Shown here: one piece after another, positions 185 to 64,000 of the stretch
Numbering within the stretch: position 1 is the first letter of the stretch
Layout: each line of letters opens with the position of its first letter
DNA from: a virus
Reading direction: 5' to 3' (one strand)
Virus record (IMG/VR): IMGVR_UViG_3300004369_000013
Coordinates: 1 to 64,000 of that record
Length of the DNA: 64,000 nucleotides
The notes under the pieces: generated by a model
Database searches by the model: none
Told to the model about the DNA's origin: nothing
What the model saw: the letters and a program-made list of their open reading frames with translations, nothing else
Made by a program: the position numbers and the translations under genes

Positions 185-370
185 CTAGTCTTCTTGTTCT
201 TTATTCCTAAGTGGACTAGTTATAATCCAAAGACCAAGGGTTGCCATAATTCCATGTCCAACGATAGTTTTTGCACTACCGTCTAATACTACCCAGGCAA
301 TAAACATTCCAAGAAGAGTCCATGCCTGATCTATGAGATCCTTGATTATATTTTTTAGTATTCTTACCAT
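185..370 (-). CDS. Holin-like small membrane protein
   Basis: A 61-residue protein with a short basic N-terminal amphipathic segment, then one long or two short hydrophobic segments (about residues 16-30 and 37-53) around a DGSAKT turn, and a charged tail (LRNKEQED). Size and layout fit small phage holin-type membrane proteins, which permeabilise the inner membrane to release endolysin. Its ATG overlaps the end of the PA14/coiled-coil gene by 7 nt and has a strong AGGAGG 6 nt upstream, so the two are translationally coupled. The holin role is inferred from form and from the neighbouring lipoprotein. The lysozyme gene is far away, at 55.8 kb. Confidence 0.5.
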
Positions 371-2964
371 TTTCTACCTCCTCTTGAGCCTGGAGAATTT
401 GCTCCTGACGAGCCTCCTCCAGAATTTCGTCCACCAGATGAACTACCAGTGGCTGCACCAGTGGCTGCACCAGTGGCTGCACCAGTGGCTGCACTCGCTG
501 CTGCTGCTACCGCATTCATTGCTGCACCTGTTGCTACTACTGTAACCACAACCATATCTGTTGCCTCTTCTCTTTCTTCTTCTGTCATATCTGCACCAAT
601 ACTTCCAATTGCCTCTAGTGCTGCTCCTGGATCAGTAAATGCTGCTTCTAATAATGCTCCAGCATCTGTAACTAATTCTACGTTTGCAGCAACTTCTGCT
701 GTTATAACAAGTGCTTCTCCGCTTTCAGATGTACGAACTTCAACTGGTGTTGAGGCTGGAAGATCCTTGTATTCAATTCCAGCATCTTGGATCTGTGCTG
801 CTGAAACATTTTCTCCAGATGATATGGCTGCTGCGACAACAACTGTTGCAATTAAATCTTTTTGCTCAGATGTAAGTGGCTTGTCTGATTGTTTAATTGC
901 TTCTACAATACTTGCAACTTCTGCTTGGGTAACCTTACCGTCAGAGTTAATATTATCTAAAACTTTTTTAGCATCTTCTGCTGTAATCTTTCCATCATTT
1001 AAAGCCTTTTGCTCAGCAGCCTTTCTATCTTCTTCTGCCTTTAATCTTGCAGCCTCAGCCTCTTTAGCCTTTTGCTCTGCTAAGATTCTGGCTTCTTCTG
1101 CTGCTATCCGTTCAGCCTCTTCTTTTGCTTCTGCAATGGCTCTTTCTTCTTCCGCTATGCGCTCTGCTTCTATGCGTTCAGCCTCTGCTTTTGCATCTTC
1201 TTCTGCCTGTCTTGTTGCCTCAGCAATTGCTTCTTCTTCAGCCTTTGCCTTCGCTTCTGCTTCAGCAGCCTCTATTTCTGCTGCTATGCGAGCAGCCTCT
1301 TCTTCTGCTGCTATACGCTCAGCCTCTGCCTTGGCTTCTGCTTCTGCTTTTTCTTCTGCTGCTTTAACTTCTGCTGCAATGCGATCTGCTTCTTCTTGGG
1401 CTTTTATCTCTGCCTGTTTTGTTGCTTCAGCAATTGCTTCTTCTTCAGCCTTGGCTTTTGCTTCTGCTTCAGCCTTTGCCTGAATTCTTGCTGCTTCTTC
1501 TGCTGCTTCTGCTGCAGCAATTCTTTCTGCTTCTGCTTTGGCTGCTGCTGCTTGGGCTGCAACTATTGCTGCTGTTTCAGCCTCTATTCTTGCTGCCTCT
1601 GCTGCCTGTGCTGCTGCTTGGGCTGCTGTTTGGGCTGCAATTTCTGCTTCGGCTTGGGCTTGTGCTGCTGCTAAAGCATCTGCTGTCGCTTGTGCTTCTG
1701 CCTCTGCTTGTGCTGCTGCTGCTTCTGTTGCTAACCTTATGGCCTCTTCTTCTTCAGTTGGTCCAGTAGGCTCTTCAATTGGTCCTGGCTCTGGTGTAGG
1801 TTCAGGGGCAGGCTCTTCAGTTGGCTCTGTTGTAGGTTCAGGGGCAGGCTCTTCAATTGGTCCTGGCTCTGGTGTAGGTTCAGGGGCAGGCTCTTCAGTT
1901 GGTTCTACAACTGGCTCATCAGTTGGCTCTGGTTCGGGTGTAACTTCTGGTGATGGTTCAGGTGTGGGTTCCTCTGTAGGATCCACCGTAGGTTCAGGAG
2001 AAGGCTCTGGGGTAGGCTCTTCTGTTGGTTCTTCGGTAGGTTCAGGAGAAGGTTCTGGAGTAGGTTCAGGAGAAGGTTCTGGAGTAGGTTCAGGAGCAGG
2101 TGCTACATATGTAGACCCAGTAACAACGTTTGAATTTTCAGAGTAAAGAGAAAATGTATCGTTATCTGATCTAATATGAAATGACCATACGGTTCCTGCT
2201 GGAAGAAGGCTATCTAATAATGAATGATTAATTGTAATTGTTGTGTTAAGAGCATTAGCATCTCCAACATTTCCAGTTGCTATTCCCCATCCCCCGCTAC
2301 CTGCACTAAAAGAGATAGCATATCTTTCTGGTTGAGTGTTTCCAGTGTCTGGTGCTTCCCAACTTAAGACTATTGATGTTTCTCCACTAGATATTGTTAA
2401 ATTTCTTGGAGGACCTATTGTTTTTACTACTGGGGCTGCTTGTGAAGTAAAGGCTTCTGCTGGAATAACTTGCATTGACCCAGACTGATTCCACCATAGT
2501 TCAACCCAAGCACCTCCACCATTTTCATAGTACAGTAACTCTATGGTCTTTGGAACTCCTGCCGTAAATGCTACTGGTGCGCTTGTTGTTCCTCCGCCAC
2601 CTTTGTCGTACCAGTCGTTTGTTATATTAATACCGTCAATGTAAAGTTTTGTTCCATCATCTGCTGTTGCATAAAATGATATATCCTGAGTAGAATCGCT
2701 TCTAATTGACCCTGTAAATCGTACAACAACATCCTCTGAGGGACCGCCTAAGACGCTACCCTCGCCCCACTGGAAGTCAATGTTGGGTACGTTTGTAGTT
2801 ACTACTGGAGAGGCTTCCTGTGGTATGTAAGGAGATTCGTTTTGTCCTAGTACATCATAAACCTGAGCAGTCAAACCTTCTGATGCATGTGCTTTGTCAA
2901 TTCCTAAAAAGAGGGGAAATAGAGCAAGTGACGCAATTAATGTTATTCTTAATAACTTTTTAAT
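364..2964 (-). CDS. Exported PA14 / fibronectin-III / Pro-Glu repeat / coiled-coil surface protein, probable ATT start
   Basis: About 866 residues. Order: signal peptide 1-27 (KKLLRI, hydrophobic core, cleavage after AHA), PA14-like beta domain about 60-175 ([15 protein letters not shown] motif), Fn3 domain about 180-285, a [11 protein letters not shown]-type repeat about 287-402, a 250-residue Ala/Glu/Lys coiled coil, an EF-hand-like loop ([10 protein letters not shown]), and a Gly/Ser/Arg-rich tail with GAAT repeats. The first conventional start is a TTG at 2874, but it would remove the signal peptide. The reading frame upstream is open only back to a TAG, and the only start that fits is ATT at 2964, with AGGAG 6 nt before it. 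PA14 domains often bind carbohydrate, so a role in coating or modifying the host surface is plausible. The signal peptide argues against a virion protein. Function is unknown. Confidence 0.7.
445..492. repeat. Four tandem 12-bp repeats in the surface protein gene
   Basis: ACCAGTGGCTGC occurs four times head to tail (445, 457, 469, 481). On the minus strand it encodes the repeated Gly-Ala-Ala-Thr tail. Perfect identity suggests recent slippage expansion. Confidence 0.9.
1769..1903. repeat. Pro-Glu repeat region with a 78-bp direct repeat
   Basis: A segment of more than 50 bp beginning GGCTCTTCAATTGG at 1769 recurs at 1847 almost unchanged, within a longer array (about 1757-2100) encoding PEPTPEP, EEPAPEP and PGPIEEP motifs. 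It forms an extended linker between the Fn3 domain and the coiled coil. Confidence 0.8.
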
Positions 2965-2975: not shown

Positions 2976-3008
2976 AATAGTCGTAGTGGTGATATGACTA
3001 ATAAGGCT

Positions 3009-3017
3009 ATTATATCA
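3009..3017 (-). promoter_or_regulatory. Extended -10 promoter for the PA14 gene
   Basis: TGATATAAT on the minus strand, between the terminator of the Ig-like surface gene and the PA14 gene. The predicted leader is about 38 nt and includes the AGGAG site. No -35 box is evident. Confidence 0.6.
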
Positions 3018-3027
3018 TTTTATGCAA

Positions 3028-3056
3028 CAAAAAAGGGAGCCAGTTTCCTGACTCCC
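3028..3056 (-). terminator. Intrinsic terminator of the Ig-like surface protein gene
   Basis: On the minus strand a 9-bp stem (GGGAGTCAG with CTGGCTCCC, one G-U pair), a GAAA tetraloop and a run of six T. It lies 22 nt after the stop codon. Confidence 0.9.
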
Positions 3057-3077
3057 CTAGTTGTTAGATTAAGGTTT

Positions 3078-4817
3078 TTACTTTTTTACTTTTACCCTCT
3101 TTGCAATCTTGGCAACTGTGTTGGCAAGAGTTGTAATTTGTGCCTTTAGGGCTGCCATCAAAGTTGTAACCTCAGTTGATAGAGCCTCAACGGCTGAGGT
3201 TGCAGCATCAGCAGCATTGCGTGCCTCTTCAGCAGCAACTGTTGCAGCATCTGCTGCTTCAGCAGCAAGGTTTGCAGCATCTGTAGCAGCCTGTGCTGCC
3301 TTTGCTGCATCTTCAGAAGCCTTTGTAGCAGCCTTTGCTGCTTCATTAGATACTGTTGCTGATGCTGTAACTGCAACCTGTCCTGCTACTGGAAGAGATG
3401 ATCCACCTGTTGCAGTAATTGTTACAGTGTTTTCTGTCAAAGGCATAAATACCTTATATGACTTAACTGTTTCTGTATCAGTTGTGATTGATGTTGCTGT
3501 AAGAACATCTGAACCTGAACCAAATGCATAGGTTGAAGTAATTCCACCTGTTGCAAATAGTGCTGAGTGTGTCTTTCCAGATACTGGAAGACCTGCTGCA
3601 TCAAGAACTTGAACCTTGATAGTTGCTGCTTCTCCTGGAAGATATGTTTCCTTGTCAAATGACAACTTAACTGTTGCTGCTGCTGCCTCTACACGAGTAG
3701 CAACTGGAGCAGAAGCAATTGTTCCTGTTGAGTTCTTTACTGTAACCGCAACCCCACCTGCCTTAACACCTGTAAGCGTAAAGACTGCTTCACCGTTTAC
3801 GATTGTTGCTGCTGTACCTGAATCAGATACTGTCGCTACATCTGATGAGTATGCATAAAGTGTGCCTGCTCCTACTGCTACGCCTGATGCATCTCTAGCA
3901 ACTGCCTTTACGGTGGTTGTATTTGCGCCAAGTGCGATAACAGACTTAACTGGAGTTGCCGTAATTGTAGCAATATCTCCATAGAATGTTACAGTCTCTG
4001 TTGCAAGAACTGTACCTGTAAGTGTTGTAAGAGTAATTGTTCCAACTCCTGCTGTACCGTCAGCAAAAATACCAATATAGTTACCTGTTGGAATAACAAT
4101 TGAGCGACCAGCAGAAGACATTGTTGTGGCATTAGTGCCATATCCAATCAAACCTGATCCTGATACTGTTGCAAGAATTGCTTCTGTTGCAGATCCTCCT
4201 GCAGCATTCTTAGGTGTAACAACGATAACCGCTGCTGCATCAGATGATGCTGTTTTTGGTGCGTACACTGTTGCATCTGTTGTTGCAGTTGTTACTTCTC
4301 CTGCATTGAGGATTGAAGTTGTTGTTGCTGCAGATGGAGTAATGTCCCCTGTTTTAACCGTAACTGTCCATGAAATAGTTGGACCAGTTGATGGCTTGGT
4401 TGTGATAACTCGTGCCTCATAAGTACCTGCAACTGTAGGTGCAACCAATGACAGCGTAAATTTTGCAGTTACATATCCTGGTGTGTTTACAGTTGAGTTA
4501 ACATCTGCCGATATATTGCTAGCAGCAACCTCTACTGTTGAAGTTGTTGTTTCAAGCAAAGTAAGTGTTGCATTCTTTGCAGCGCCTGTTGGCTGTGAGA
4601 ACATGGCAGACAATACAGTTGCTGTATCTGCTGATGTTTCTGAAATAAATGACAATGTTACCACTGCTGTTGCGGTTTCACCTACAAGGATTGAGTCTGT
4701 AGCAGAATCAATCGTTAGTGACGGTGCAATCACAGCAGCACTTGTCGGAAGTGCTGATAGTACGCCAAAGGACATTGCTGCAGCGAGTCCTAGGGCAATT
4801 TTCTTAAATGAATTCAT
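3078..4817 (-). CDS. Secreted Ig-like repeat surface (S-layer-like) protein
   Basis: 579 residues. A signal peptide (about 1-28, ending PTSAAV) is followed by about 450 residues of Thr/Ser/Ala/Val-rich beta sandwich modules, for example LSFDKETYLPGEAATIKVQV, typical of bacterial Ig-like repeats. Next comes an Ala-rich coiled coil (about 485-555) and a short strongly basic end (KIAKRVKVKK). This combination resembles surface-layer-like proteins of acI actinobacteria, as I recall them, so host origin is inferred. The start is clear: ATG with AAGGAG upstream, 17 nt beyond the terminase stop. A phage gene for an exported host-like coat protein could mask the infected cell from other phages, but nothing in the sequence proves this. 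It could also be a virion decoration, though the signal peptide argues against that. Confidence 0.7.
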   Translation of the reverse strand: MNSFKKIALGLAAAMSFGVLSALPTSAAVIAPSLTIDSATDSILVGETATAVVTLSFISETSADTATVLSAMFSQPTGAAKNATLTLLETTTSTVEVAASNISADVNSTVNTPGYVTAKFTLSLVAPTVAGTYEARVITTKPSTGPTISWTVTVKTGDITPSAATTTSILNAGEVTTATTDATVYAPKTASSDAAAVIVVTPKNAAGGSATEAILATVSGSGLIGYGTNATTMSSAGRSIVIPTGNYIGIFADGTAGVGTITLTTLTGTVLATETVTFYGDIATITATPVKSVIALGANTTTVKAVARDASGVAVGAGTLYAYSSDVATVSDSGTAATIVNGEAVFTLTGVKAGGVAVTVKNSTGTIASAPVATRVEAAAATVKLSFDKETYLPGEAATIKVQVLDAAGLPVSGKTHSALFATGGITSTYAFGSGSDVLTATSITTDTETVKSYKVFMPLTENTVTITATGGSSLPVAGQVAVTASATVSNEAAKAATKASEDAAKAAQAATDAANLAAEAADAATVAAEEARNAADAATSAVEALSTEVTTLMAALKAQITTLANTVAKIAKRVKVKK

Positions 4818-9031: not shown

Positions 9032-9308
9032 AATCAAAAAATCCTTTCAATTGCTTCAATATTTTATCTACTTCTTTTTTATTTACATTGCAATTGGGGC
9101 AAAATCCAAAATCATTATATATAGACAACTGCTCTCCACAACCACCAAGACAAAGTCTTTTTTTACCTATTCTATTTTGTCTGCGAGTTATTTGATATCT
9201 TTCGGCTATCTTTGCTTTTGTTGCTTCTTCTCTACAAGAACTTCCGCAATAAATTTGATAACTTACTTTTGGCTTAAATGGGCTATCGCACCTTTCACAT
9301 AATTTCAC
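9018..9308 (-). CDS. Zinc-finger protein with two Cys clusters
   Basis: 96 residues with CERC and YCGSSC near the N-terminus, then CLGGCG and CPNC in the second half, giving two likely four-Cys zinc sites. A basic linker (AERYQITRRQNRIGKKR) separates them. Likely binds nucleic acid or acts as a structural partner of the replication and recombination proteins around it. GTG start with GAGGA 9 nt upstream; it overlaps the RuvC-like gene by 14 nt. Confidence 0.75.
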   Translation of the reverse strand: MKLCERCDSPFKPKVSYQIYCGSSCREEATKAKIAERYQITRRQNRIGKKRLCLGGCGEQLSIYNDFGFCPNCNVNKKEVDKILKQLKGFFDYEQE

Positions 9309-22299: not shown

Positions 22300-25200
22300 T
22301 TATACCTCCGCCAAATAAAGTGTCATTTCAGGACCACTTATTCTTCTTGTATAATCAATATTATATACTATAAACCTAGAAGTGTCTTCTGTTACTAAAT
22401 CTAAATTATTAGAATCTTTGTAATTAATTGTAACAATATCGCCAAGTTGAATAGTTGGAGTTGTAAAAATTTTTATTCCAATAGATTTTTTAGGCACCAT
22501 TAACTTATCTATAAGCCAACCCATTAGGTTTTCAGCGTCATCGTGTGTTTGAATATATGGGGTGTCCAAAGTAAACTCATTATTGCCGTATATCATTCTG
22601 CTTAATTTTATATTATCAAATTGTTCTTTTTCAATAAGTGGAGAAATAATTTGAGACGAAGAGTCTAGTTGTGGATTAGAAAAGTTACTACGTTTTTTAA
22701 AATATTCATCAACGGTCAATTCATGAGTCGTGTCCTGGGTAAATGTAACTCCTTGAATTCTTAAATAATTTCCACTAGTTTCATCAAGATTAATTGCTGT
22801 ATCTGTAGCATTAAAGATTAAAAATTCAGCGCCGTAGGAATCAGCATAAAATCCAGACGTTGTATAACCTTTTATTTTATTAAATGTTGGAGATAGTTGT
22901 GCATAAAGAGCAGGGTAGGCACGGTCATACTTAATATCAAAATACGCACATTCACGCATGATAGTTCCAAATTCTTCAAAGTATAAATTATATTTAGGTG
23001 ATTCTTGAGAACTAATTCCAGATAAATAGGTTGACTGAACAATTCCACTCATCGCATACCTTCTAAAAGATTCACTGGCATTTATTTCTTTATTTTCAAA
23101 TGCTGATGAAAGTGTTTCTCCAACCGTAAAAATACTGTTTTGAGAATAATTTTCAGATAGTGCATAAATATTTTCAAACATAACCCTAGAAGATCCACGA
23201 ACAAATGGAGCCATGTTGTTGTGTATTGGAAGCGGATCTGGGTCGTCTACAACTTGAATCAACTGATTATTAATATACAAAAAGAATCTTCTAATTTTTC
23301 CTATGTCTTGATACTCTACTGCCAAATCATAGACTGTCGGATTTTCTTCACCAGCCATTCTGTATTGACCTGTAAACCTACCATCATCAACGATAATCTT
23401 TGACAATCCGCCCCAAAGTTTTACTGGTATTGCTTCTGTGTTAGCAGAATTTTTTTTAATTTTATAGAACACTACATTATTAATTGAAATATTAGACCTA
23501 TTGTTTTTATCTAAATTTAAGTACGACTCTACATTTTGCTCCGTTAGAGCAACAATTTCAAAATAATAACCGTTGTTTGTTTCTGGATTAAGCAATACTG
23601 CCAAACCGCCAGAGCCTCCAGCAATGTTTACGTTTTGATCTGGCCTTACTCCAGCAACCTGATAATACGTAACGCTTCCTGTTGGAGTCTGACTACGAAT
23701 TTCATTATTTTCAATTTTTCCAATAATTCTTATTCTGGCCCCAAAATGTTTGTATGCACTGTCTAAGTCTTTATAAACATATGAAACTAAATCAATAGGA
23801 TTTTCTGTTGTAGCAAAAGATGGTCCATTCATAACTAAAGCAGAAGACTGTATTGTTCCAGACTGCGTTGACAGTGTGCCATTAACTGACGTTTCAGTTG
23901 AATAACTTGAAGACATAAAGTTTTTTATAGTTCCATTTCTTGATGTTTGTCTTGCCTTGGTATTGTTAATTCCTGCTGCACCTGTTGTTGTTGATGGTGT
24001 TGATATGTCTTCAAGTAATGTAGTTGTAAATAAATACTCTGTCTTCATTTCACAGCCCCTGACATAATCATTATTTGACCAATAAGAGCCTATTCCTGCA
24101 GAGTGTGTAGCGATTGATGTTCCAAATTGTGCACGTCCATGCTCATAAACTGATCCATTTTGTAAACGAGTAATTCCTTCAATTTCTTCATAGAATGGAA
24201 CAGTGTATATTCTAACCAATCCTGTAGGGTATATTTTTCCATTAAATGGCAACGACTTAAAATAATTTTGATATTCCTGATTGTTTGTAATCCAGACATT
24301 ACTGCTTCCTTGTCTGTGTGAGGCTCTCCATCCCTGAATTTCTTGTCCTTTTTGCGCCTCTGTAATTTGTCCACTTGCAACTTTCTTATCTAAAGCATCA
24401 ATAAAATTAGTTGGAGCCAGTCTTCCAGGCAAAACGATTTGTGGCGAAGAGTCTAATAAAGATCCATCCGATTGAATCGGATACCAAATTGCAAGCGTAA
24501 CATTAAATTGAGCAGCGTCATATCTAATAATTTCTCCATTAGAATAAAAATATCCTTGATATCTAGTAAGCCAATAAACGTTTTCTCCAAGGTCTATTAC
24601 ATTATTTTGAATTTTATGATTAACCACTGTTGGAACGTTATTGGATAGATCTGAATTTATTGGCATTGCTCCAAGAACATATTTTGATTGTTTAGACGCA
24701 ACCTCATTAATTGTTTTTGTTGAATCCGTTCCAGATGCCTCCCAAAGTAATGATGGCTTATATATCCAGGTTTTTTCTTGATCAACCATGCTTGCTTGAC
24801 GAATATTTCCATAAGACCTTTGAATATATCTAGTTGTATAATTAATTTTTCCATTATTATAAACTTTTTTATCTTCAGATGCTATTGATAAAATATTAGG
24901 TAAGTTTCCCGATGTTTGATTTTCAATTATTCCACTAACAGATTGATTGTTTGATCCAGACAAAACAAAGTTAGTTTCTCTATCATTTTCTGTTGGCAAC
25001 ATATAGTTTTTGCTCATTATAATAAAATTATTATATTCATCAAAAAACATTGCGCTTTGTGTTGCTACTGCCAATTGATTTAAAACCTCTGCTACAGTTT
25101 GATCTGGCGCAATAAAAAAATATGGAATTATTGCTTCTGGCTCATCTGTATTTCTGTAAAAGGTGTAGTTGCTAAAACCAATATAATCAAGAATTAAAGT

Positions 25201-55798: not shown

Positions 55799-55818
55799 AT
55801 GCTACCAGTAGGTAGCAT
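55799..55818 (+). other. 5' hairpin in the lysozyme mRNA leader
   Basis: ATGCTACC, AGTA, GGTAGCAT form a perfect 8-bp hairpin that begins at the predicted transcription start. AGGAGGT and the ATG follow 12 nt later. It could stabilise the mRNA or regulate it. Confidence 0.7.
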
Positions 55819-55843
55819 TTGTTTCTCTAGGAGGTATTTTACA

Positions 55844-56413
55844 ATGAGAGAGTCAAGTGTTTGGCTGGGGGTATTAACGTTAATTGTTGGCAGTACCGTT
55901 TTTGTTATTTCTGCAAATGCAATAAATAAAGACAGTTTATTGGCTAATGAAACTGAAAATAACTTGTTGATTAAAGAGCCTGAAAAACTTGCCACCCAAA
56001 AGGTGGCTTTTTTGGTTTCTAAAGAGAAAAAATTAGCAAACTATGAAAATGCTCATAATTTAACTGATGGGCAACTAGTTGATATGTTGCGTCATGTGGG
56101 TTTTAAGGGAGGGGCTTTAAGGTCTGCTTGTGCTATTGCCAAAGCAGAATCTAATGGTCGTCCTCTTGCCTTTAATGGCAATGTAAAGACTGGAGACAAC
56201 TCTTATGGCGTATTTCAAATTAATATGATTGGCAAACTTGGGGCAGATCGTAGAGAAAAGTTTGAGTTAGATTCAAATGCTGAGTTGTTAAATCCAGTAG
56301 TTAATGCAAAAATTGCTTTGCATATGACTAAGGGCGGAACAGACTGGTCTTCATGGAGTTCTGTAAATGGAAAACGGTATCAAGAATGGTATAATAAATA
56401 TCCATGTAAATAA
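55844..56413 (+). CDS. Membrane-anchored lysozyme / transglycosylase endolysin
   Basis: 189 residues. One N-terminal hydrophobic segment (SVWLGVLTLIVGSTVFVIS, then ANA) is a signal-anchor or cleavable signal. The catalytic domain (about 90-185) has Glu in CAIAKAESNGRP and the SYGVFQINM motif, as in lysozyme-like or SLT domains that cut the glycan of peptidoglycan. The ATG at 55844 has AGGAGGT 8 nt upstream; an earlier frame start is inside the hairpin. It is the only gene of the left 62 kb on the plus strand and ends at a bidirectional terminator. Confidence 0.85.
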   Translation: MRESSVWLGVLTLIVGSTVFVISANAINKDSLLANETENNLLIKEPEKLATQKVAFLVSKEKKLANYENAHNLTDGQLVDMLRHVGFKGGALRSACAIAKAESNGRPLAFNGNVKTGDNSYGVFQINMIGKLGADRREKFELDSNAELLNPVVNAKIALHMTKGGTDWSSWSSVNGKRYQEWYNKYPCK

Positions 56414-62124: not shown

Positions 62125-62182
62125 TTAAATAAAACTGGACGCCTAGACGCAGTGGGGTGGGGGTAGTATCTAGGCGCCAGCA
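62125..62182 (-). ncRNA. Candidate small hairpin RNA with a C-rich loop, or terminator
   Basis: On the minus strand a 12-bp stem (CTGGCGCCTAGA with TCTAGGCGTCCAG, one bulged A) encloses a 21-nt loop carrying CCCCCACCCC, then TTTTATTT. It starts at the predicted start site of a TGATATAAT promoter. It could be a self-contained RNA of about 55 nt, or simply the terminator of the membrane-protein gene upstream. Confidence 0.45.
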
Positions 62183-62187
62183 TAAAA

Positions 62188-62196
62188 ATTATATCA
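62188..62196 (-). promoter_or_regulatory. Extended -10 box before the hairpin RNA
   Basis: TGATATAAT on the minus strand; its predicted +1 coincides with the base of the hairpin. A second minus-strand TGTTATAAT lies at 62219-62227. Confidence 0.5.
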
Positions 62197-62391: not shown

Positions 62392-62619
62392 TTATTTCCT
62401 AGAATGATCTTTAAGGTGTTCAATCATCATGTCAAATACTTTGTCCATTTTTGATTCAAGTCTTGTAACTTGATCTTTCATTGATGATCCAGAATTTGGT
62501 TTAAGTTCGGACATAATATCCTCAACGTATTTTTTCACAATCCACCTTCCGACAAGTCCGACGGCGCCAAGAATGGATAAAACAGTTAATATAAACCCCG
62601 CCCAGCCTTGTGCAGTCAT
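62392..62619 (-). CDS. Small membrane protein, holin-like
   Basis: 75 residues with one N-terminal membrane helix (GWAGFILTVLSILGAVGLVG) and a C-terminal coiled coil ending in a charged tail (MDKVFDMMIEHLKDHSRK). Could be a holin, antiholin or membrane anchor. No link to the lysozyme gene is visible. Leaderless start: TGATATAAT ends 7 nt before the ATG. Confidence 0.6.
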   Translation of the reverse strand: MTAQGWAGFILTVLSILGAVGLVGRWIVKKYVEDIMSELKPNSGSSMKDQVTRLESKMDKVFDMMIEHLKDHSRK

Positions 62620-62626
62620 AGAATGA

Positions 62627-62635
62627 ATTATATCA
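62627..62635 (-). promoter_or_regulatory. Extended -10 promoter (leaderless) for the small membrane protein
   Basis: TGATATAAT on the minus strand, 7 nt before the ATG at 62619. Confidence 0.6.
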
Positions 62636-62663
62636 TTATTTGAGATTAAATTCGGGCGGTATA

Positions 62664-62734
62664 CAACAAAGCCGAAAATAGATATTCAAACCACACCCTA
62701 GACAATCTATGAATGAAACATTCATTATGTCTAG
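62664..62734 (+). repeat. Upstream regulatory repeat, copy A
   Basis: AAGCCGAAAATAGATATTCA is followed by a compound inverted repeat: CTAGACA (62698-62704) pairs with TGTCTAG (62728-62734), and ATGAATG (62709-62715) pairs with CATTCAT (62719-62725). Copy B is at 63764-63831. Confidence 0.75.
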
Positions 62735-62737
62735 ATA

Positions 62738-62768
62738 TTGGACAATAGTTCAACCCCTAGGCTATAAT
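62738..62768 (+). promoter_or_regulatory. Promoter for the rightward operon
   Basis: TTGGAC (62738-62743), 19-bp spacer, TATAAT (62763-62768). The start codon follows only 6 nt later. Confidence 0.6.
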
Positions 62769-62774
62769 ATAGAT

Positions 62775-62915
62775 ATGGCAAATATTGAATTTATTAGAGA
62801 GCAAACAAAAAAAGATAAAGAAATTTTTGATAAACAAAATTTTAGATTTTTAACTTCTTTTCTGCCAGGTGGGATTTATCAAACCTTACAGAGAAAAAGA
62901 GATAAAAGTGAGTGA
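62775..62915 (+). CDS. 46-residue protein before the sulfotransferase
   Basis: Starts MANIEFIREQTKKD and ends QTLQRKRDKSE; basic, helical, with one PGG turn. Its TATAAT box is 6 nt before the ATG, so it is leaderless. Its stop overlaps the sulfotransferase start by 8 nt. Function unknown. Confidence 0.65.
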   Translation: MANIEFIREQTKKDKEIFDKQNFRFLTSFLPGGIYQTLQRKRDKSE

Positions 62916-63750
62916 TGGCGTTAAGCCAGGGGGTTTATTAAATCTTAATAAAACTAATCATTTTTTGTCTGGATTTCCCAGATCTGGCAATACGGTTCTT
63001 TCCTGTATATTAAATCAAAATCCAGAAATATATTCAAGTCCATTAAGCACTTTGTTAGAACATATGTGGCAATCTCATCTATTATTAAAAAATGGGCAAA
63101 TATCAAAAGTAATCAAAGAAGATTATAAAAGATCTAAAAAATTAATCTTAAACATGCCTTATATTTATTATAAGGATGTAGAAAAAAATATAATTTTTGA
63201 CAGATCTAAGTTTTGGGCAAATCCAGATAATATTTTATTAATAAAAGAATATATTACAAAAAATCCTAAGATAATTTTTACAACAAGACCAGTAATTGAA
63301 ATGATGACATCATTTATATCAGTATTAAAAGATGGAATTATTTCTGATATGAATAACAGCGACTTTGCTCAAAATAAAGATTTGTCAATAAATGATAACT
63401 TAGCAGATTTTTTATATTCAGAACATAGCATTTTTGGCAGGCACTTGAGATGGGCTTTTCAATCTATAGACAATTCAGATAATGCTGGAATAATTCACAT
63501 AGTTAAATATGAAGATCTTTTAAATACACCACAAGAAACCATGAATAAGATCTATGAATTTTTAGAGATTAAAAGTTTTCAGCATAACTTCAAAAATATT
63601 AAAAAAATAGAAAAGTACGATGAGTCTGTTTTGGGTATACCAAAAGATTTACACAACATTAGAAAAGTTCTTGGTAGAAGTAATTTAAAAGTTGAAGACT
63701 ATCTAACACCTAAAACTATTGAGAAATATAAAGACGTTAGGTATTTTTAG
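62908..63750 (+). CDS. Sulfotransferase
   Basis: 280 residues from the GTG at 62908. The 5'-phosphosulfate loop is GFPRSGNTVLSCIL, close to the N-terminus, and a later KYEDLLNTPQETMNKIYEF is the usual C-terminal helix. A TTRPVIEMMTSF segment is the 3'-phosphate site with Arg. Such enzymes transfer sulfate from PAPS to a sugar, protein or small molecule; in phages they may alter the host surface or a virion protein. An earlier GTG at 62869 is possible. Confidence 0.85.
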   Translation: MSDGVKPGGLLNLNKTNHFLSGFPRSGNTVLSCILNQNPEIYSSPLSTLLEHMWQSHLLLKNGQISKVIKEDYKRSKKLILNMPYIYYKDVEKNIIFDRSKFWANPDNILLIKEYITKNPKIIFTTRPVIEMMTSFISVLKDGIISDMNNSDFAQNKDLSINDNLADFLYSEHSIFGRHLRWAFQSIDNSDNAGIIHIVKYEDLLNTPQETMNKIYEFLEIKSFQHNFKNIKKIEKYDESVLGIPKDLHNIRKVLGRSNLKVEDYLTPKTIEKYKDVRYF

Positions 63751-63763
63751 TTATATCGTTAGT

Positions 63764-63831
63764 GTAAGCCGAAAAATAGAATATCAAACCATCATACGAC
63801 ATAATATGACTGCAAGCAGTCTGCTAATGTC
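63764..63831 (+). repeat. Upstream regulatory repeat, copy B
   Basis: AAGCCGAAAAATAGAATATC is followed by GACAT (63798-63802), GACTGC (63808-63813), AA, GCAGTC (63816-63821) and ATGTC (63827-63831): the same order of outer and inner stems as copy A, at the same distance from the GCCG box, but with a different inner sequence. Confidence 0.75.
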
Positions 63832-63853
63832 CCATCGGATGTAATATCTATAC

Positions 63854-63882
63854 TTGCTTAATCTCCCGATATAGGTTATAAT
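63854..63882 (+). promoter_or_regulatory. Promoter for the right-edge gene
   Basis: TTGCTT (63854-63859), 17-bp spacer, TATAAT (63877-63882). The GTG start follows 5 nt later. Confidence 0.6.
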
Positions 63883-63887
63883 GAGAT

Positions 63888-64000
63888 GTGCTAGATACAA
63901 TTAAGCAAATCCTAATAAATGGTTTGACAGAAAAACTAAAAGTACATCATAGTGTTTATCGTCTTCCGTGTACAAGTGAATTTCTAGAAGAACTTATCGC
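63888..64000 (+). CDS. Partial rightward gene of unknown function (3' end outside window)
   Basis: 37 codons from a GTG (an ATG two bases earlier is closed by a stop). The product begins LDTIKQILINGLTEKLKV, with no known motif in the part seen. Like the 46-residue gene it has a -10 box directly before the start and the repeat upstream. Confidence 0.6.
   Translation, partial: MLDTIKQILINGLTEKLKVHHSVYRLPCTSEFLEELI

Follow-up and report, generated by a model that had tools for sequence, protein, structure and literature searches.

What are the two structured regions that stand in front of the rightward genes near the end of this phage fragment, and what holds them in shape? Both lie in the window, the whole stretch of 64,000 nucleotides analysed here (a virus record of 65,385 bases, taken from base 1 to 64000), and the initial annotation saw in the kept pairing of their differing inner stems a sign of selection either on structure or on a two-fold protein site. 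Nearly all long genes run leftward up to 62619, orientation switches at 62620-62774, and a short rightward block follows; a rightward ORF for a lytic transglycosylase- or lysozyme-like protein (55799-56413, +) stands within the otherwise leftward block. The terminase shares 54-55% identity with its counterparts in Streptomyces phages such as Genie2 and Yaboi, and its further matches include many Gordonia phages, so an actinobacterial host is likely, and the kind of record suggests a freshwater source. Adjoining the terminase, positions 3078-4817 and 364-2874 (-) encode a surface-like protein with a signal peptide and a protein with long repeats. An example of the ordinary terminators of this phage is a classical leftward one at 62130-62190, with a long stem (CTGGCGCCTAGA/TCTAGGCGTCCAG) and then TTTTATTT on the minus strand.

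The two homologous regions, A (62669-62774) and B (63766-63887), are real, and their common anatomy is as first described (Table 1). The window contains two copies, and no more, of the box shared upstream of both rightward genes, AAGCCGAAAA(A)TAGA, at 62669-62682 and 63766-63780, against 0.00 expected in shuffles, and the sequence common to A and B runs on to CAAACCA. In both, the start of the box and the start of the outer-stem GACA are 32 nt apart, which bears out the equal spacing of the double palindrome, and the inner stems (ATGAATG/CATTCAT in A, GACTGC/GCAGTC in B) are wholly different yet pair. A host-type promoter sits directly before each gene with the stem-loop immediately upstream of it. 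Its -10 ends 6 nt before the ATG at 62775 in A and 5 nt before the GTG at 63888 in B, as the annotation had placed it, a spacing that reads as a leaderless layout and recurs in relatives: of 73 scorable copies, 49 have a -10 that ends 5-7 nt ahead of the start codon. Promoter A is the best promoter-like match of its region (11/12), and promoter B is not among the listed matches of the promoter scan. A covariance model of 28 copies finds A with an E-value of 7e-15 (A being among the 28) and B with 1.1e-9 (B not being among them).

Table 1. Features around elements A and B, in window coordinates
Feature	Position	Strand	Basis
75-aa gene, holin-like, first on the other side of the divergent region	62392..62619	-	PHROG 9869, E 5e-11; weak holin match
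Left part of element A: degenerate TTTAAATTCGGCGG-GATA motif, here TTAAATTCGGGCGGTATACAACA	62643..62668	+	Motif kept upstream of box in relatives
Box of element A: AAGCCGAAAATAGATATTCAAACCA	62669..62693	+	Same box in at least 119 viral stretches
Double palindrome A	62698..62734	+	Sequence; fold; covariance model, 66 bits; 62 nt from box identical to relative L009
Outer stem of A: CTAGACA / TGTCTAG	62698-62704 / 62728-62734		
Inner stem of A, loop AAA	62709-62715 / 62719-62725		
Promoter A: TGGACA-18-TATAAT, 6 nt before start codon	62739..62768	+	Promoter scan, 11 of 12
46-aa ORF, first gene after element A	62775..62915	+	No family match
Sulfotransferase gene (Sulfotransfer_1/3), cargo between A and B	62869..63750	+	Pfam, E 7e-11; PHROG 27463, E 7e-70
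Box of element B: AAGCCGAAAAATAGAATATCAAACCA	63766..63791	+	Sequence comparison with A; shuffles
Double palindrome B	63798..63831	+	Sequence; covariance model, 46 bits
Outer stem of B: GACAT / ATGTC	63798-63802 / 63827-63831		
Inner stem of B, loop AA	63808-63813 / 63816-63821		
Promoter B: TTGCTT (63854-63859), 17 nt, TATAAT (63877-63882), 5 nt before GTG	63854..63882	+	Read by eye; conserved in orthologues
199-aa ORF downstream of B, runs to 64487 of the record	63888..64000 in the window	+	44 orthologue loci; weak PD-(D/E)XK-like fold similarity

The annotation made its proposal depend on further copies and on pairing in relatives. Within the 65.4-kb fragment there is no genuine copy beyond A and B (a third covariance-model match, 9148-9206 on the minus strand, was rejected as lying inside a coding frame), and over 100 relatives occur elsewhere. 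An exact-pattern scan recovered the box in at least 119 IMG/VR stretches, and searching with the protein of the 199-aa gene that follows B returned 44 loci, almost every one preceded by the element; about 95 distinct copies of this type, termed class 1, were extracted, and relatives number about two hundred in total, in uncultured phages of apparently actinobacterial hosts. A logo of 89 class-1 copies shows a conserved ttaAatT..g..GG preceding AAGCCGAAAATAGA. In bacterial and archaeal genomes totalling 257 billion bases the box pattern has 46 matches, which are at chance level (best 39 bits), whereas phage class-1 copies score 45-78 bits. Neither class 1 nor the second class described below was found by BLAST in 50,697 phage records (INPHARED), and an Rfam 15 covariance-model scan gave chance-level matches only for class 1 and none at E <= 1 for class 2. 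The composite module is thus a real, widespread and, in these two collections, uncatalogued noncoding element family, abundant in uncultured phages with an actinobacterial-phage-like terminase. To our knowledge, no phage carrying it has been cultured so far.

Compensatory changes, looked for as the annotation had advised, are plentiful: in an alignment of 28 copies that share one geometry, 96.6% of stem cells are paired and 57 are double-changed, a pairing level reached by none of 500 shuffles, and sliding the partner arm lowers pairing to 15-50%. Both stems take part, the outer stem of one copy (L075) also having changed in a compensated way. Hairpins are moreover exchanged whole between near-identical orthologues: when the 151 orthologue pairs whose flanks match at 90% or better are compared, hairpin identity falls below 65% in 69, some of them with flanks that match at 100%. 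Comparative sequence evidence thus shows that the shape of the hairpin is conserved and its sequence is not, and selection on structure, the first of the two options of the annotation, is upheld. Strict retention of shape under wholesale replacement of sequence is an unusual mode of evolution. A further candidate class-1 stem, TTCGGC/GCCGAA, was rejected as lacking covariation support, because its box side is invariant while the other side drifts.

Scanning whole records with a covariance model revealed a second, shorter version, class 2, with the sharply bounded layout TTTAAAGTTCGGCG(C/G)AAAATAGA-n-AAACC-n6-[TGCCC-TAAAC-GGGCA]-n5-GGTTAGTAT. Its 94 distinct copies carry 35 hairpin types, and its pairing stands above every shuffle, whether scored by paired cells, by double-changed cells or by covariation.

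The second option of the annotation, the two-fold protein site, fares badly. Palindromes that immediately precede the promoters of a divergent control region are where an operator for a symmetric dimeric repressor or activator would be sought, and such an operator should present one palindrome at all sites of a genome. The palindromes of A and B are instead unrelated within one genome, as are those of class 1 and class 2, and therefore one dimeric protein cannot read both; whole hairpins also change between unchanged flanks. The loops are strand-polar: on the box strand A exceeds T in 34 distinct class-1 hairpins and T exceeds A in none, and the corresponding counts in class 2 are 30 and 3. 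This polarity fits a single folded strand rather than a dimer site, and we regard the operator as highly improbable.

Whether that strand folds as DNA or as RNA is a closer question. Among about 416 stem cells only 19 are non-standard, comprising two G.T, three A.C and 14 other mismatches, so there is no wobble preference on either strand, unlike in RNA helices. Taken with the loop polarity this leans towards a hairpin that acts as DNA, with the qualifications that the counts are small and that whole-hairpin exchange could itself remove G.T intermediates. A structured noncoding RNA, either a cis leader or a small RNA transcribed from box to hairpin, would account for the covarying multi-helix layout, the conserved unpaired box and the sharp boundaries, and the A-rich unpaired positions on the box strand of both classes are also typical of structured RNA. 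Such an RNA would, however, lack a conserved promoter upstream of the box in either class; the promoter that was identified sits downstream of the hairpin and would therefore not transcribe it. The box strand of class 2 is antisense to most neighbouring genes, G.U pairs are scarce on either strand, and there is no Rfam match, which together make this reading unlikely. The upstream CGGCGG-GATA motif was considered as a small-RNA promoter and rejected, having no conserved -10 and being absent from class 2. Choosing the strand by RNA folding energy was also set aside: the minus strand is lower in 36 of 38 cases, but the difference shrinks after dinucleotide shuffles (z 0.45; 25/38).

The arrangement of the two classes in whole genomes is regular. 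In all 12 records that hold both, they are oppositely oriented, hairpin sides facing, 12.7-17.7 kb apart, and a cluster of CAAACC/GGTTTG repeats lies between them, 0.8-2.4 kb from class 2, at a density of 12-20 per 800 bp versus 0.9-2.2 expected. In three genomes of about 105 kb (G006, G009 and G011) the main switch to divergent orientation lies at class 1, with about 24-27 kb in one direction and about 80 kb in the other. Some of the 12 records have perfect DnaA boxes in the cluster or close to it; one is G009, whose noncoding cluster stretch holds three of them together with ATTACGAA repeats. Clustered repeats with DnaA boxes in noncoding DNA are the marks of an iteron/DnaA-type origin, and here it is the interval between the elements that shows them and not the elements themselves; the CAAACC-cluster region is thus a probable replication origin, judged by its sequence. 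CAAACC is the end of the element's box and the only part that box and cluster have in common, the flanking letters being different. The window fragment ends before class 2 and the repeat cluster and contains neither.

Several further features of this interval can be recorded. Likely phage origins, in the form of noncoding stretches about 1 kb long that carry 10-16 CAAACC/GGTTTG repeats together with ATTACGAA repeats, are found in G009 (L215, about 3000-3700), G011 (23681-24660) and G006 (78900-79560). The 13-18 kb between the elements hold 3-8 perfect DnaA boxes (TTATCCACA) in 12 relatives, 1.4-6.7 kb to the right of class 1 (e.g. G009, G010, G018), and many of them are near class 1 and away from the repeat cluster; their number is far above a chance expectation put at a fraction of one by an estimate made without shuffle control. 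GC skew was uninformative as evidence of an origin, since it tracks gene orientation. Directly after class 2 in G006 (77224-77420) there is a third, degenerate element consisting of TTTCGGCGGGTATACAAAGGATGCCG, a TATTAC/GTAATA hairpin, and then ACAAACC with several GGTTTGA repeats.

The reading that we favour, at a probability of about 0.35, is that of a composite module in which a leaderless promoter is joined to a box and hairpin recognised by shape as DNA and linked to replication or recombination. In anatomy A and B are two copies of one intergenic module. Its downstream half is an ordinary sigma-70/SigA-type promoter from which transcription would start at or beside the start codon, and its upstream half, about 70 nt, comprises the conserved box and a hairpin kept, as the covariation shows, in shape and not in sequence. 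One strand would fold into the hairpin, as a cruciform or at a single-stranded stage, and a replication or recombination protein of phage or host may recognise the folded form by its shape, beside the sequence-specific box. The polar pair, class 1 at the main divergent point and the inverted class 2, brackets the origin-like region of CAAACC repeats; if replication does start at that cluster, the departing fork would meet both elements hairpin-first. We infer the action as DNA, the origin and the link to replication from these patterns, and the function of the module is proposed on the same footing. Should the polar placement around the DnaA/iteron-like region be functional, it would offer a direct handle on replication control. 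That all this amounts to a new type of replication- or recombination-linked DNA signal, joining a sequence-specific box to a hairpin recognised only by shape, in two polar, origin-bracketing versions, with rapid hairpin turnover across a widespread freshwater phage group, is conceivable, although the odds are against it.

The strongest rival gives the same parts to transcription. The module would be a promoter-terminator cassette in which the hairpin ends incoming transcription on the opposite strand and the adjacent promoters start the next unit, such cassettes serving to shuffle genes. Read on the non-box strand, the hairpin leads into GGTTTG-n4-CTCTATTTT, with a T-rich tract TCTATTTT, and if the outermost TAGA/TCTA paired, TTTT would follow the stem at once. 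In about 53 of 71 contexts class 2 comes immediately after the end of a gene that points at it, and 17 of these contexts are convergent; for class 1, the leftward genes on its right might have to be insulated from the leftward late operon. The stem beside the T-tract is, however, short, A+T-rich and interrupted; the terminator scan called only the inner stem of B (tail ATATTATGTC) and not A, and on the promoter (box) strand it found no intrinsic terminator, there being no T-tract after the hairpin. Conservation extends well past the T-tract (TTTAAAGTTCGGCGC), which a terminator would not need, and class 1 mostly has a divergent gene upstream (73 of 95 copies). We consider a terminator cassette unlikely, even though the mosaic junctions described below would suit it.

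The closest precedent for that reading is the promoter early stem-loops (PeSLs) of T4-type phages (Arbiol 2010, Comeau 2014, as cited in PMC4503421). As far as they are described in PMC4503421, PeSLs resemble our element in being intergenic stem-loops directly upstream of a host-type early promoter and junctions for modular gene shuffling. Set against the same description, the present element differs in the conserved box that precedes the hairpin, the complete change of stem between near-identical relatives, the polar inverted second version, the want of a clear terminator tail on the promoter strand, and the phage group in which it occurs.

Gene exchange at the element is visible in the relatives of the window. 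One of them, L009, is 93% identical left of A, 100% over the element's first 62 nt and unrelated thereafter; another, L019, resembles A on its left flank (91%) and B on its right (96%), lacks the sulfotransferase gene between them and so represents the empty site. The window thus carries an inserted block of element plus sulfotransferase gene, its locus being, on alignment evidence, a recombination mosaic with the insertion at the element. With mosaic junctions at the element and different genes on either side in relatives, the gene following class 1 varying between the 199-aa family, DUF6171 proteins and others, the element marks points of gene exchange in these phages. For the preferred composite module this would be a side effect, the module offering a homologous junction at which gene cassettes are swapped, here the sulfotransferase gene. 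The start codon of the latter is uncertain (GTG at 62869 or 62911); the 46-aa ORF overlaps its start region in another frame (62869-62917, GTG..TGATGG), which suggests translational coupling or a frameshifted fusion.

Integron attC sites are also cassette junctions, recognised by the shape of a folded strand whose stem sequence varies. Our element shares the junction and the variable stem with attC, but it precedes genes whereas attC follows them; inspection of the element showed no attC core sites, and we know of no integrase for it.

Turnover of the hairpin might alternatively be driven by the cassettes themselves. The palindromes would then be escape variants of the site of a cassette nuclease, and neighbouring nucleases (HNH by class 2, a possible PD-(D/E)XK enzyme after class 1) would cut rival alleles, so that the palindrome keeps changing. 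Class 2 in G009 does adjoin an HNH endonuclease gene (Pfam E 1.4e-12), and the 199-aa protein, modelled with confidence (pLDDT 82), has recurring weak fold similarity to NhoI, Eco15I, EcoRV and the junction resolvase Hjc, PD-(D/E)XK nucleases being among the matches. Its fold search nevertheless gave no match at E <= 0.001 and TM-scores of only 0.2-0.4, where class 1 does not precede a gene of the 199-aa family the gene after it is another one, mostly of DUF6171 type, and loop polarity would be left unexplained. This explanation is improbable despite its fit to fast hairpin turnover, and the HNH gene and the possible nuclease gene beside the elements are leads only.

Other known signals resemble parts of the proposed module. 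The virion RNA polymerase promoters of phage N4 are DNA hairpins with a 5-7 bp stem and a 3-nt loop; hairpins of such size near a promoter are found here too, but their stem varies and sits some 30 nt or more ahead of the sigma-70-like -10. Extended start-associated sequences (ESAS) of Cluster K mycobacteriophages, known from actinobacterial phages with function unknown, are likewise inverted repeats upstream of a short motif near start codons (PMC3203893). They follow a single consensus across the many sites of a genome, whereas the stems of A and B are unrelated and each class has only one or two copies per genome; the 13-bp start-associated sequence GGGATAGGAGCCC beside the start codon is absent from the A and B regions read. 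The 17-bp palindromes of Cluster O mycobacteriophages, with a 7-bp inverted repeat around a 3-bp A/T-rich centre, are similar in form, but they are invariant and present in more than 30 copies per genome (PMC4351075), whereas the present hairpins are hypervariable and rare in each genome.

Among the genes of the early block of these phages, one for iron-sulphur cluster assembly (IscA-like) was seen in L002 (2854-3183, -) and also in G006 and G009.
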